Origin: Candidatus Nitrosocosmicus franklandus
GTDB lineage: Archaea > Thermoproteota > Nitrososphaeria > Nitrososphaerales > Nitrososphaeraceae
Assembly: GCF_900696045.1 (NCBI RefSeq)
Contig: NZ_LR216287.1
Coordinates: 2,027,854-2,091,853 of the forward strand
Direction: 5' to 3'
DNA: 64,000 bases
A program made the position numbers and the translations under genes. The number at the start of each line of letters is the position of its first letter. The first letter of the stretch is position 1. The notes under the pieces were generated by a model that was not told where the DNA came from, made no database searches, and saw nothing but the letters and a program-made list of their open reading frames with translations. Positions 30,995-38,232 of this stretch are shown here, piece by piece.

Positions 30995-31661
30995 GGCTCT
31001 GTTCAGTTAACAGGTTTTAATTCCTTGTTGTGATAGTCGACAAACAGGTTCAACCAGTTTTTTACGTGTTTTAGTTTGCAGTTCTTTAGCCTGCAGGGAA
31101 AGTAATCATCGAAACTTTCAGTTCTGTCCTTGATATACTGCATTGTTCTTTCAATCAAGTTTTTTTCATAGGAGGAATGGAGATGGTGTTCTAATTTAAG
31201 GAATTGACAAGCCATGGGATACCAAGTACCACCATCTGTTGAAACTGGATGCTTTCCATAGTCTCTGACTATGTTTGACAGAAACCGTTCCGCAACAAAC
31301 ATGTTTCTCTCCTTAGAAATGGATAGTGAGAGAATTTCCTTACTTTTCGCATCTATTGCAACCCATAACCACGTGTATTCTGAACCAACCTTAAGCAATG
31401 TTTCATCTACAATGAATTCACATATCCTTCTTTGTTTTGTCTTGATAATCTTAGGTTGGTACTTTTGAATCCAGTTCCAGATAGTGACATGATTTCGTTT
31501 GATACAGTATGATAATCTTTCAGATGTTTTCCTAAGAGAAAGACCTGAAAAGTACAAATGTAAGCCATAATACACATACCTTGAAGGTGTTCTGTTTCTA
31601 GTATTCATAAAAGAGATAGGACATCTTCAAGCTATAGACTTGACGCTAAATGAACAGAGCC
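30995..31661 (-). mobile_element. IS6-like insertion sequence, copy 2 (667 bp)
   Basis: It has the same 11-bp terminal inverted repeats as copy 1 (GGCTCTGTTCA at 30995; TGAACAGAGCC ending 31661) and the same 667-bp length, but opposite orientation. The 8-bp target duplication CTTTTGAA is intact at 30987-30994 and 31662-31669. It sits in the divergent promoter region between cofE and leuC. Confidence 0.95.
31003..31608 (-). CDS. IS6-like DDE transposase, copy 2
   Basis: The 201-residue intact transposase is a homologue of the one at 8488-9093, with the same DDE positions (IVDETLLK, VSTDGGTWYP, LIERTMQYIKDRTE). About 20 percent of residues differ, mostly in the N-terminal third, so the two elements are separate lineages of one family. 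The gene is transcribed towards cofE. Confidence 0.92.
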   Translation of the reverse strand: MNTRNRTPSRYVYYGLHLYFSGLSLRKTSERLSYCIKRNHVTIWNWIQKYQPKIIKTKQRRICEFIVDETLLKVGSEYTWLWVAIDAKSKEILSLSISKERNMFVAERFLSNIVRDYGKHPVSTDGGTWYPMACQFLKLEHHLHSSYEKNLIERTMQYIKDRTESFDDYFPCRLKNCKLKHVKNWLNLFVDYHNKELKPVN

Positions 31662-34372: not shown

Positions 34373-35173
34373 TCAGGATATTGTTCCTATCAATTTTCGG
34401 TAGGCTTCTAAACCGCTCTCAATATCGTTTTTTACAGCCGATTCTAACTGTTCTCCACTAAAAGAATAAGTTAGAAGGAAAGGCTCGTTTGCTATGAAAC
34501 GTAGACTATTACCAGAGAATGCAGCAGTGCCTGTAACCCTAGGTTCATCAAATAGGTTGCTGGTGATTATTATCGAATTGTTTAAAGGATATGTATACAG
34601 CGTTCCAAATTGAATTGGTAATTTAATGGTATTATTTAAGGTCAAAATGTTTATTGATTGTAGTTGAACAGGCTTGCTAGAAGTAAATGTGATCAGTCCC
34701 GAATATGTTTTCTCGCTGCTGTTGCTGTCAACAGAAAATATATAATATGATTGTTCAAGTCCGGTGCCTTGAATCGGATCACCTTTAGATGTAACTGTTC
34801 CCGTGATGGCCATCTTGTACAACGGCGAATAAGGCGATGTTGATGTTGATGTTGATGTTGGTGGTTCTGTAATCGTTGGTCCGGATGATTTTAGACCAGA
34901 AAGTTTAACATTGTCTGGAACTTTTGGGGTACTTGATATCTGATATTGACTTTCATATGAAACAAGGTAGTCGCCTGATGGCATTGACTTTTGGGCAGTT
35001 GCGGATTCGTATTGGAATTCAGGTGGTGACGCCAACGCTGTTGTTAAAGAGGGGTAAAAAAGCAATCCATGAGCTGAAATCAAAAGTATGCTAGAAGCAA
35101 AAATAAGAGTGCCTTTTAACCTTGACAGTGTACACTCTATTTGGCGAAGACTTTTTGCCGCTACTTCACACAT
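34373..35173 (-). CDS. membrane-anchored or secreted protein, 266 aa
   Basis: An N-terminal hydrophobic segment (about 22-42, LIFASSILLISAHGLLFYPS) with a basic flank (RLKG) acts as signal or anchor. A Ser/Thr/Pro linker (about 100-118) follows, then a beta-rich domain of about 140 residues containing ITGTVTSKGDPIQGTGLEQS. No family recognised. It lies directly downstream of the leader-like peptide gene on the same strand (37 bp gap), so it may belong to the YcaO/TfuA neighbourhood. Confidence 0.7.
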   Translation of the reverse strand: MCEVAAKSLRQIECTLSRLKGTLIFASSILLISAHGLLFYPSLTTALASPPEFQYESATAQKSMPSGDYLVSYESQYQISSTPKVPDNVKLSGLKSSGPTITEPPTSTSTSTSPYSPLYKMAITGTVTSKGDPIQGTGLEQSYYIFSVDSNSSEKTYSGLITFTSSKPVQLQSINILTLNNTIKLPIQFGTLYTYPLNNSIIITSNLFDEPRVTGTAAFSGNSLRFIANEPFLLTYSFSGEQLESAVKNDIESGLEAYRKLIGTIS

Positions 35174-35210: not shown

Positions 35211-35372
35211 TCATTGAACCAAATCGATTATACTCTTTTGTACTATTTTTTTAGCCTCAGATGAGATATCGTAACAATCTAGTATTTTCATGGGGTTTTT
35301 TATCAATTTTTTCCTGAATTCTGGTTCACTGGCTGCCTTTAGCAAAATTTCACTTATTACTTCAGCATCCAT
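35211..35372 (-). CDS. small leader-like peptide (NHLP/Os1-type), 53 aa
   Basis: From ATG at 35372 the product is 53 residues; a TTG nine codons earlier (35399) would give 62. The core, LLKAASEPEFRKKLIKNP followed by ILDCYDIS, resembles the A-x-x-PEFR-x-x-L-x-x-NP pattern of NHLP/Os1-type domains, which serve as leaders of modified peptides. A short Lys/Ile-rich tail follows, with no Cys/Ser/Thr-rich core; the only Cys is in LDCYD. It is divergent from the YcaO gene 234 bp away. It may be a precursor peptide or a stand-alone small protein. Confidence 0.6.
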   Translation of the reverse strand: MDAEVISEILLKAASEPEFRKKLIKNPMKILDCYDISSEAKKIVQKSIIDLVQ

Positions 35373-35606
35373 GTTAATAGAACTCAAGTAATTCCTCAAG
35401 TAAATTTTGAATATATATACTTTTTTGAATTAAAAATATTATCTTTAACGTTTCAATTCTGTGAAGCAGGTTCACATGGAACATAATTTATTCTTTTTTC
35501 AAATTGGTATAACCTAACCTACATAGTATGTCAGTTGATAGGATCTTTATATGTTAACCAATAATTAAAATAATATTCCAGACAAAAAATATCTTGTTTA
35601 TACTTA

Positions 35607-36956
35607 TTGAAAAGCGAACCTGTTTTATTACTAGAGTCCAGAAAAAAATGGAATAGGCAAGGAACATCGAGAATTCAGCCTGTAGAGGAGACATTAGCAA
35701 AAGTTCTTCCATTGGCCAAAGAAATAGGTGTTACAAGAATAGCCGATATTACGGAAATGGATAGGTTGCGAATTCCAAACTATTCAGCTGTGTTACCTGG
35801 AACAGAAGATTATATCTGGGTCTATAGTGGAAAGGGTCCTACAAAAAATCATGCAAAGGCAAGTGTCGTGATGGAGAGCATTGAAAGGTATTCTTCATTA
35901 CCTTCTAACTACGAAGGAACAATCATAAAAGGAACATACAAAGAACTATCAAAAAGCTATAATGTTTTAAAATACGACGATGTAATAGAACCGCTCTCAT
36001 TTCAATTAAATGATGAAATGATGATGGATTATTGTATTGGTTACGACCTTTTGAATCATAAAGATATCTTGGTACCAGCTCCTCTTGTTATATTTAGGTA
36101 CTCTCCTGTCCCGCCATCTATAAATCCGTACTCTTTTTTTCATACGAATGGATTGGCATCAGGAAATGTAATGGAAGAAGCAGTTTGTCATGCACTTTGT
36201 GAAGTTATCGAAAGGGATGCCGTTAGCATTGCTGAATTTTCCAGCAGTGCTTTTCAATATCATGTTCTTAAGACTATTGAAAATGAATTTCTAAAGTATG
36301 GAGTTGTGGGAGTAAAATCCCTTAATTCTAGAGATTTTATAGACGATAATTCTCTTTATCCTGATATTGATCTAAATGAAGTCGACTATTCTCCTGCAAA
36401 AAAACTAATCAGGCAGTTCAAAAAGTGTCATATTTCATTAATTGTTAAAGATGTTACTTCAGACATAGGAATACCCACCTTCATAGCAAGTAGCGTTGAG
36501 TGGGTAAATCATGATTATGGCTATCTGGTGGAGGGTCATGGAACTCATCCTGATTCTAGAATAGCTTTGATGCGAGCCATCACTGAAGTCTCCCAATCAA
36601 GAGCTGCTAATATTCAGGGATCTCGGGATGATCTGAGAAAGATGAAATACGATCCTCAGAACAGCGATGAACATAGATCATGGCAATTTATGGCCTCCAA
36701 AAACAAGAAAAATTTCTCTAAAGTCAATTCATTCTATCACGACGATATACTTGATGATATAAAACTAATCCTTGAGAACTTGAAAGATAGAGGTTTCAAA
36801 AACGCCATAGTGGTTAATATGACAAATTCTAAACTAAAAATACCGGTCGTTAGAGTTATTGTTCCTGGACTAGAAACTTTCAAGATAAACAAACTAACTG
36901 TAGGTCGCAGGGCACAGGAGAGTGCTTTAAAATGTCTTTTACAAAAAAGCCCATAA
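35607..36956 (+). CDS. YcaO-domain protein (ATP-dependent backbone cyclodehydratase/thioamidase)
   Basis: The 449-residue protein has the YcaO ATP-binding pattern: KASVVMESIERYS (84-96), NGLASG (181-186), EEAVCHALCEVIERDA (190-205) and ALMRAITEVSQSRAANI in the C-terminal half. YcaO enzymes phosphorylate a peptide backbone amide to form azolines or thioamides. It lacks an E1-like partner domain and overlaps tfuA by 25 bp, which is the arrangement of thioamide-forming TfuA-YcaO pairs. Those install thioglycine in methanogen McrA, a target not seen here. The substrate is unknown; the nearby leader-like peptide is a candidate. Confidence 0.9.
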   Translation: MKSEPVLLLESRKKWNRQGTSRIQPVEETLAKVLPLAKEIGVTRIADITEMDRLRIPNYSAVLPGTEDYIWVYSGKGPTKNHAKASVVMESIERYSSLPSNYEGTIIKGTYKELSKSYNVLKYDDVIEPLSFQLNDEMMMDYCIGYDLLNHKDILVPAPLVIFRYSPVPPSINPYSFFHTNGLASGNVMEEAVCHALCEVIERDAVSIAEFSSSAFQYHVLKTIENEFLKYGVVGVKSLNSRDFIDDNSLYPDIDLNEVDYSPAKKLIRQFKKCHISLIVKDVTSDIGIPTFIASSVEWVNHDYGYLVEGHGTHPDSRIALMRAITEVSQSRAANIQGSRDDLRKMKYDPQNSDEHRSWQFMASKNKKNFSKVNSFYHDDILDDIKLILENLKDRGFKNAIVVNMTNSKLKIPVVRVIVPGLETFKINKLTVGRRAQESALKCLLQKSP

Positions 36957-37600
36957 TTTTTCTTGGCCCATCTCTCTCAATAGAGAAAGCCAAAAAGATC
37001 CTAGATGCCGATTATAGAAAACCTGCCAAAAAAGGTGACATCTTGCAATTAGTATTCAAAGAGACTAGCATCGTTGGACTAATCGATGGATTTTTCCTAC
37101 AAGATTACCCTCCTACTCCAATCGAAGTGTACAACCTTTTAAAAAAGAAAGGAACGACAGTCTACGGTTCTTCAAGCTTGGGAGCACTTCGTGCGGTAGA
37201 GCTTTCTAAATTTGGTATGATAGGTGTGGGCAAGATATTTAACTTGTTTAGAAAGGGTATAATAGATTCTGATGATGAGGTAGCCGTTACTTTTACTGAT
37301 TATTCAAATTTTAAATCTGAAGCACTAATAGATATAAGGTATAACCTGTTCTTAGCCCATAAATCAAAGGTTATTGACAAAGAAGCCAAGAGGATTATAC
37401 TTAGAATATCCAAACAAACGTATTTTCCCTACAGGACCTATGATGATATTCTAGACAAGTGTAAAACAAAACATCCAGAGATCAGGTCACAGGTAGAACA
37501 GTTTAGAGAATATCTTAAAACAAATAGAAGGAGTTTGAAGGAAGAAGATGCAGTATTGCTATTAAAGCGAATAAAGAAGCATATCGAATCAATCAATTAA
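36932..37600 (+). CDS. TfuA-like protein, partner of YcaO
   Basis: The 222-residue protein carries the TfuA signature: IFLGPSLS at the N-terminus, KKGDIL, GLIDGFF, then VYGSSSLGALRAVEL and FGMIGVGKIF, ending with DDEVAV. A Lys/Arg-rich helical C-terminus completes it. TfuA proteins cooperate with YcaO enzymes in thioamide formation, thought to help supply sulfur. It overlaps the YcaO gene, so the two are translationally coupled. Confidence 0.92.
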   Translation: MSFTKKPIIFLGPSLSIEKAKKILDADYRKPAKKGDILQLVFKETSIVGLIDGFFLQDYPPTPIEVYNLLKKKGTTVYGSSSLGALRAVELSKFGMIGVGKIFNLFRKGIIDSDDEVAVTFTDYSNFKSEALIDIRYNLFLAHKSKVIDKEAKRIILRISKQTYFPYRTYDDILDKCKTKHPEIRSQVEQFREYLKTNRRSLKEEDAVLLLKRIKKHIESIN

Positions 37601-37656: not shown

Positions 37657-38232
37657 ATGAATAACCGCCTGTCTCATTTTTTTTCGCGTGTAGATTCATA
37701 CCATATCTATGTGGTATTTTTTTACTTTTCGGCATTCATGATGCTGTATATCACGACCTTTGGAATGTACTGGAGTTGGGTGGAGTACAACGTAACTGGA
37801 ACAATCAATATTGGTGAAATAATCGTAAAAAACGATCTCCTTTTCGAAGGGGCGGGCAAATTAGTATCTTATCTTGCGGTGTTTTCTGTAATTACTTGGT
37901 ATTGTGTTACCAAAATTGGTTATAAGAGGGTTCAGAATACTCCAAAGATCGTACGATCTGTTTTGTCGGTTTTGGCACTAGTATTAATCACGGTATCAGC
38001 ATATGAATTTGTTTATAATTTTACGGTTTGGGGCTCTCTTATTACCGTAAACACTATGAATAATTATCTAAACGTTGACGATATTAACATCAACTACCCC
38101 AATCCGGAGACACCATGGAATCTTGTCTTTGCTACCAAAATGACCCTTGCCGCACTAATTATTTCATGTCATGCCTTTTTTGTGATTAATAGAGCAGGTA
38201 AGAAATCCACTATATATGTAAAAAAAAATTAG
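37657..38232 (+). CDS. four-helix membrane protein, 191 aa
   Basis: Likely transmembrane segments lie at about 18-40, 65-85, 100-120 and 160-178, with an outside loop containing NYLNVDDININYPNPETPW. I do not recognise the family. It begins 57 bp after the tfuA stop on the same strand, so it may be the third gene of the YcaO-TfuA unit. A transport or anchoring role for the modified product is only a guess. Confidence 0.7.
   Translation: MNNRLSHFFSRVDSYHIYVVFFYFSAFMMLYITTFGMYWSWVEYNVTGTINIGEIIVKNDLLFEGAGKLVSYLAVFSVITWYCVTKIGYKRVQNTPKIVRSVLSVLALVLITVSAYEFVYNFTVWGSLITVNTMNNYLNVDDININYPNPETPWNLVFATKMTLAALIISCHAFFVINRAGKKSTIYVKKN

Follow-up and report, generated by a model that had tools for sequence, protein, structure and literature searches.

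The nearest characterised sequence relatives of the YcaO and TfuA described here are methanogen proteins: in Methanosarcina acetivorans, Gly465 of McrA is thioamidated by a YcaO-TfuA pair (methanogenesis marker 1; PMC5589413), a backbone amide being activated with ATP and its oxygen replaced by sulfur (PMC5589413, PMC13174530). Archaeal thioamidation has been reported for MCR only (Malit 2021, PMC8120280). In E. coli, YcaO thioamidates ribosomal protein uL16 without a TfuA (PMC13063428). In thioamidated RiPP clusters a precursor-like gene usually adjoins the YcaO-TfuA genes (PMC8120280, PMC13174530). One group of RiPP precursors, the NHLP clan, is akin to nitrile hydratase, and some of its members serve YcaO-containing pathways (Haft 2010, PMC2887384); Os1348 is 85 aa long, and modification in the related pos/pfl pathways falls on the C-terminal part (PMC7726476, PMC12636437).

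YcaO homologs of ammonia-oxidising archaea (AOA) were already placed with methanogen YcaOs by Nayak 2017 (PMC5589413), and the TfuA clusters tallied by Malit 2021 (PMC8120280) included eight from Thaumarchaeota, so a YcaO-TfuA pair without McrA was already known in AOA. Literature searches returned no paper linking either TfuA or RiPP precursors with Nitrososphaera. What is newly noticed here is a miniprotein that is kept with the pair.

Genes, domains and genome content

The window is the whole stretch of 64,000 nucleotides of the Candidatus Nitrosocosmicus franklandus genome that was analysed. Within it, ycaO (35607..36956, forward strand, TTG start) encodes an ATP-dependent backbone-activating enzyme of the AOA type (449 aa), and tfuA (36932..37600, forward strand, ATG start) its predicted sulfur-donor partner (222 aa). 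Both open reading frames are complete, they overlap by 25 bp, and the Pfam domains (PF02624 at 1e-70 for YcaO, PF07812 at 4e-34 for TfuA) bear out an earlier note on this DNA, in which a full YcaO and a full TfuA in overlapping genes had been read from the letters. The conserved motifs of YcaO are intact and invariant across the alignments, residues S82, D52 and K203 of TfuA are common to the aligned AOA, methanogen and bacterial TfuAs, and TfuA matches the TfuA of PDB entry 6xp8 at 1.4e-32. Neighbouring full-length YcaO and TfuA with intact motifs, by which a YcaO-TfuA pair is generally recognised, are thus both present. The nearest NCBIfam equivalogs both describe McrA-glycine thioamidation, and both proteins score below their cut-offs: 290 bits against 365 for YcaO (TIGR03266) and 218 bits (7.9e-65) against 235.2 for TfuA (NF033432).

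The genome is a single contig of 2,836,447 bp (99.3% complete) and holds one YcaO, one TfuA and AmoA. No McrA was found in the whole genome by a profile search that was positive in M. jannaschii and M. acetivorans. A conserved block in the intergenic alignment of 10 Nitrosocosmicus genomes (35558..35576, forward strand, ccaataattaaaataatat) is a candidate promoter element of ycaO-tfuA. A transposase-like open reading frame of 201 aa (31003-31608, assigned by eye) is found some 4 kb ahead of the locus.

Phylogeny of the AOA YcaO

In a tree of 97 YcaOs, 39 AOA sequences and three AOA paralogs formed one clade (SH-aLRT 100, stem 1.38), which stands beside all McrA-associated YcaOs and outside their rows; the same tree neighbourhood was seen by Nayak et al. 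(PMC5589413). Whether this clade is called a sister group depends on the root, which is uncertain because the bacterial outgroup is long-branched. The YcaOs of McrA-bearing Methylarchaceae group with those of Nezhaarchaeota and Archaeoglobi and not with AOA. A private insertion of about 33 residues (218-252 of the window protein) is present in the AOA YcaOs and absent from the 83 McrA-associated and six bacterial YcaOs aligned; in the AlphaFold2 model (overall pLDDT 87.7) an extra helix (214-230) is predicted at this place. Fixed replacements in the AOA YcaOs are L63, T66, Y69, L98, R164, Y304 and L343. A separate clade, the insertion, the predicted helix and fixed substitutions are what would be expected of an enzyme whose substrate has changed. 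In total, the AOA and methanogen/ANME systems share the same two proteins, the gene order, the overlap and the motifs; the AOA pair differs in its lack of McrA, its scores under the equivalog cut-offs, its clade, the insertion and the miniprotein.

A YcaO of the uL16-modifying type (EcYcaO, NF040716) was considered and set aside (38 bits against a cut-off of 700). The earlier note had named two findings that would speak against it, an mcrA gene in the genome and a grouping of this YcaO with a branch of known different target such as bacterial ribosomal-protein modifiers, and it had asked for the whole-genome mcrA search. Neither turned up: McrA is absent, the YcaO stands apart from the McrA-associated rows, and it gives no match to the model for ribosomal-protein modifiers.

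Two further kinds of YcaO were encountered. Genomes of genus g8, in the same family as N. franklandus, have one or two additional AOA-type paralogs (G201:C110, L259; G276:C315, L260; G276:C339, L261), which form a branch of their own inside the AOA clade and have neither TfuA nor the miniprotein within a few kb. Some genomes of genus g5 encode an additional long YcaO-containing protein (frame of about 830 aa; G114:C67, L257; G139:C128, L258; G262:C326, L262), perhaps like the OsmC/YcaO fusion of TIGR03549; these were set apart as a different, long-branched group in the tree.

The miniprotein: gene, sequence and fold

Divergently from ycaO, with its start 219 bp ahead of it on the opposite strand, lies a gene for a miniprotein of 58 aa and about 6.6 kDa, probably of the NHLP/Os1348 clan type (35211..35387, reverse strand), a candidate substrate for thioamidation that the earlier note had missed. 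An in-frame TTG at 35399 would extend the protein to 62 aa (35211-35399); the TTG at 35387 is indicated as the start by the relatives and by a conserved TATA-like box about 28 nt upstream. This candidate TATA box (35410..35420, reverse strand) is kept in 10 Nitrosocosmicus genomes within an intergenic region that is otherwise mostly divergent. The gene is present in single copy, and its dN/dS of 0.07-0.2 shows that it encodes a real protein under purifying selection. The 48 distinct sequences of the family align almost free of internal gaps, with A18, F24, R25 and L36 invariant and P22, I14, S42 and K46 nearly so.

Matches to models of NHLP/Os1348/Franean1_4349-type RiPP precursors (NCBIfam, Pfam) are weak for the window sequence (TIGR03793 at 3e-4, NF038399 at 6e-4, PF14407 at 2.5e-3). 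Across the family, NF038399 matches 36 of 41 members (best 2.8e-6) and TIGR03793 35 of 41, likewise with weak scores; all scores seen are below the curated cut-offs, the window protein reaching 20 bits against 40 and 50.9 bits for these leader-domain models. When a profile of the family was compared with PDB sequences, matches were obtained to nitrile hydratase alpha (4e-8), to the NHLP leader peptides 9cjx (0.002) and 8tb1, and to gallate dioxygenase, in agreement with the known relation between the NHLP clan and nitrile hydratase (PMC2887384).

AlphaFold2 predicts four helices (3-20, 22-30, 32-37 and 43-57; pLDDT 84) and no loose tail. The best VIA-align match of this model is Os1348 (6lk7, residues 4-57; 52 residues, rmsd 2.4) with a modest Z of 5.7, since ordinary arrangements of small helical bundles can also give values below 8; the proteusin precursor 8tb1 (Z 4.4) and borosin precursors are also among the matches. 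Foldseek gave no significant match against the PDB (best E 0.73, DesB). The miniprotein stops about where the leader of Os1348 ends, and the core is absent. By profile and by predicted fold it probably belongs to the leader clan of RiPP precursors (TIGR03793, NF038399, PF14407; Os1348/PosA in 6lk7), which it resembles in a leader-like motif and a predicted helical fold, and like which it lies next to a YcaO. In contrast to those precursors it scores under the cut-offs, is archaeal and has only 58 aa, and its conservation extends to the very end, where the last helix is itself conserved. No Gly-Gly site, conserved Cys/Gly-rich stretch or hypervariable C-terminal core was found in the 48 distinct sequences; without a cleavable, variable core, the miniprotein is not an ordinary RiPP precursor.

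Conservation of the neighbourhood

The miniprotein gene lies divergently upstream of ycaO in 30 of 40 related-genome neighbourhoods (about 36-89% identity); in some Nitrosocaldaceae the two are separated by a single transporter gene. When 41 neighbourhoods were compared all against all, only ycaO, tfuA and the miniprotein gene recurred across families. Other conserved neighbours were rejected as confined to the window's genus, namely an exported protein (34373-35173) and a 191-aa membrane protein encoded right downstream of tfuA (37657-38232). In genus g4 and in genome G071 the miniprotein is kept far from ycaO-tfuA; since the new neighbourhood is common to both, its displacement was probably one relocation.

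Two arrangements were noted in passing. In genus g4 (L133-L139), the relocated gene lies, as judged by eye, between genes for an antiporter-like membrane protein, an Asn/Thr-rich exported protein and a DNA-glycosylase-like protein. In the Nitrosocaldaceae type, the miniprotein gene heads a same-strand run (L037, 11658-13963; L038, 2813-5104; L040, 5329-6793) that encodes a membrane-anchored protein of about 215 aa and/or a membrane-anchored BNR-repeat protein of about 465 aa, a possible clue to function.

Distribution of TfuA, McrA and the miniprotein

Three hundred genomes were drawn from the class Nitrososphaeria. TfuA was found in 54 of them: 45 of family f1 (Nitrososphaeraceae), six of f3 (inferred to be Nitrosocaldaceae), one of f5 and two of f9, which is Candidatus Methylarchaceae by its records. 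Families f1, f3 and f5 make up the 52 TfuA-bearing AOA, and AmoA is present in 50 of these. With the miniprotein profile (E<1e-20), 49 of the 52 gave a match, as did none of the genomes without TfuA; all other matches were marginal, with E no better than 4e-4, and most of them were pieces of long open reading frames. Two of the three misses (G223, G253) have the ycaO-tfuA locus at a contig edge, and in the third (G184, a MAG of about 520 contigs) there is no miniprotein in the roughly 400 bp available upstream of ycaO. Family f2 (inferred to be Nitrosopumilaceae) has AmoA and lacks both the pair and the miniprotein.

Within the class sample, McrA was confined to f9, where four genomes have it and two of these also have TfuA. 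All 52 TfuA-bearing AOA lack it, as the earlier note had expected of this lineage. Both TfuA-bearing Methylarchaceae, members of the same order as the AOA, carry McrA and lack the miniprotein, and in a phylum sample the same was true of 26 of 26 further TfuA-bearing genomes (f25, f54), that is, of all 28 sampled non-AOA TfuA-bearing Thermoproteota. The miniprotein was likewise absent within 7 kb of all 80 YcaO loci of methanogen, ANME or alkane-oxidiser type. By these counts, the sampled TfuA-bearing Thermoproteota carry either McrA or the miniprotein, with the exception of G223, G253 and G184. Much of the co-occurrence count is explained by vertical inheritance, and it is weighed down accordingly, because few independent events stand behind it: one joint absence (Nitrosopumilaceae), one relocation, and one or few alternations of McrA for the miniprotein.

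In the McrA-bearing Methylarchaceae (L033, 4433-8301; L034, 3335-7229), ycaO-tfuA is flanked by DUF2117 and radical SAM genes, which are candidates for MCR-related functions.

Candidate substrate and alternatives

The earlier note had concluded that the pair either modifies another protein or makes a peptide not yet described for AOA. The lack of an McrA target stands; the AOA homologs had already been published, and the miniprotein gene turns the open choice between protein and peptide into one specific candidate. A functional link of some kind among ycaO, tfuA and the miniprotein gene is very likely. No other candidate was found to go along with the pair, and the miniprotein is the best candidate for what the AOA YcaO-TfuA modifies; judged from sequence, the proposal that the pair thioamidates it has about an even chance of being right. 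A folded protein of 58 aa would be acceptable as a substrate, for in McrA and uL16, too, it is a protein that is modified. The proposed target resembles that of the E. coli enzyme in being a conserved folded protein instead of a linear natural-product precursor; the E. coli system differs in having no TfuA, a YcaO of a different group and a different substrate.

As we infer it, ycaO-tfuA and the divergent 58-aa gene would act together in thioamidation, as a single unit, in ammonia oxidisers of the Nitrososphaeraceae and Nitrosocaldaceae types. YcaO would use ATP to activate one amide in the backbone of the folded miniprotein, most plausibly within the conserved stretch L-x-x-Y-x-I/V-S (residues 36-42), which lies around the loop joining helices 3 and 4, and sulfide would be delivered by TfuA, presumably from a ThiS/MoaD-like carrier. 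The thioamide would then sit in the backbone of a small, conserved protein that is left unprocessed, and not in a natural product that is cleaved and secreted. The N. franklandus genome has genes for two ThiS-fold proteins. Liu et al. are said to have found in 2021 that TfuA frees sulfide from a thiocarboxylated ThiS-like carrier. A summary of such sulfide release is given in PMC13063428.

The miniprotein may instead be the recognition part and not the substrate, as it has no C-terminal core and corresponds to the leader part of Os1348. As a stand-alone leader or adaptor it would bind YcaO, perhaps at the extra helix, and present or license another substrate, with the thioamide on a different protein. 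Its alignment with residues 4-57 of 6lk7 only, and the leader-clan motif formed by A18, P22, F24, R25 and L36, speak for this. A separate core peptide was nevertheless sought among 106 small open reading frames around the locus in 10 congeneric genomes and rejected, the well-conserved ones being frames within or antisense to known genes or the miniprotein; and to our knowledge no free-standing leader acting in trans has been described for a YcaO-TfuA pair. This explanation is regarded as unlikely, though it is the strongest of the alternatives.

Somewhat further down stands a housekeeping target, for example a ribosomal or redox protein, with the miniprotein as a mere neighbour or regulator. 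Other YcaOs do modify large proteins, namely McrA and, in E. coli and with no TfuA involved, uL16 (PMC13063428). Against this reading, the Nitrosopumilaceae have AmoA and presumably share most housekeeping proteins with the other AOA, yet do without the pair and the miniprotein; and where the genes are unlinked, genomes with the pair still keep the miniprotein.

It is improbable that the product of the three genes is a secreted thioamide RiPP, serving as a signal, antibiotic or metal chelator, for which the miniprotein would be modified and cleaved. A small, precursor-like gene beside YcaO-TfuA is the usual layout of thioamidated clusters such as those of thioviridamide and thiovarsolin and the std cluster (PMC8120280, PMC13174530). 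The AOA locus differs from these in being a single-copy trait conserved over several AOA families, with no core motif and, among the 41 neighbourhoods, no export, transporter, protease (peptidase) or further tailoring gene conserved alongside; the conserved C-terminal helix in place of a hypervariable core and the strong purifying selection on the gene also argue against it.

An McrA-like target left over from methanogen ancestry deserves hardly any weight, and McrA itself was rejected: the closest characterised relatives are McrA thioamidation proteins (6pe3, MJ1094), but McrA is missing from the organism's own genome and from all 52 AOA genomes, the scores are under the equivalog cut-offs, and the AOA YcaO lies outside the McrA-associated rows, inside which the McrA-bearing Methylarchaceae of the same order fall.

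Significance

Thioamidation of the miniprotein by the pair can be placed in a wider, more tentative reading, which is possible but rather doubtful: AOA may have switched an McrA-modifying pair, or its sister, onto a coreless, folded miniprotein of RiPP-leader type that became a conserved part of their physiology, the leader-only precursor being itself the mature product and the first archaeal thioamidation target beyond McrA. With the miniprotein, the orphan YcaO-TfuA pairs of AOA gain a candidate substrate that is specific, small and easy to measure; these soil and hot-spring ammonia oxidisers are in culture and important for nitrification in soils. If the proposal is true, backbone thioamides in archaea would not be tied to methane metabolism, and RiPP-leader folds could be final modified proteins.
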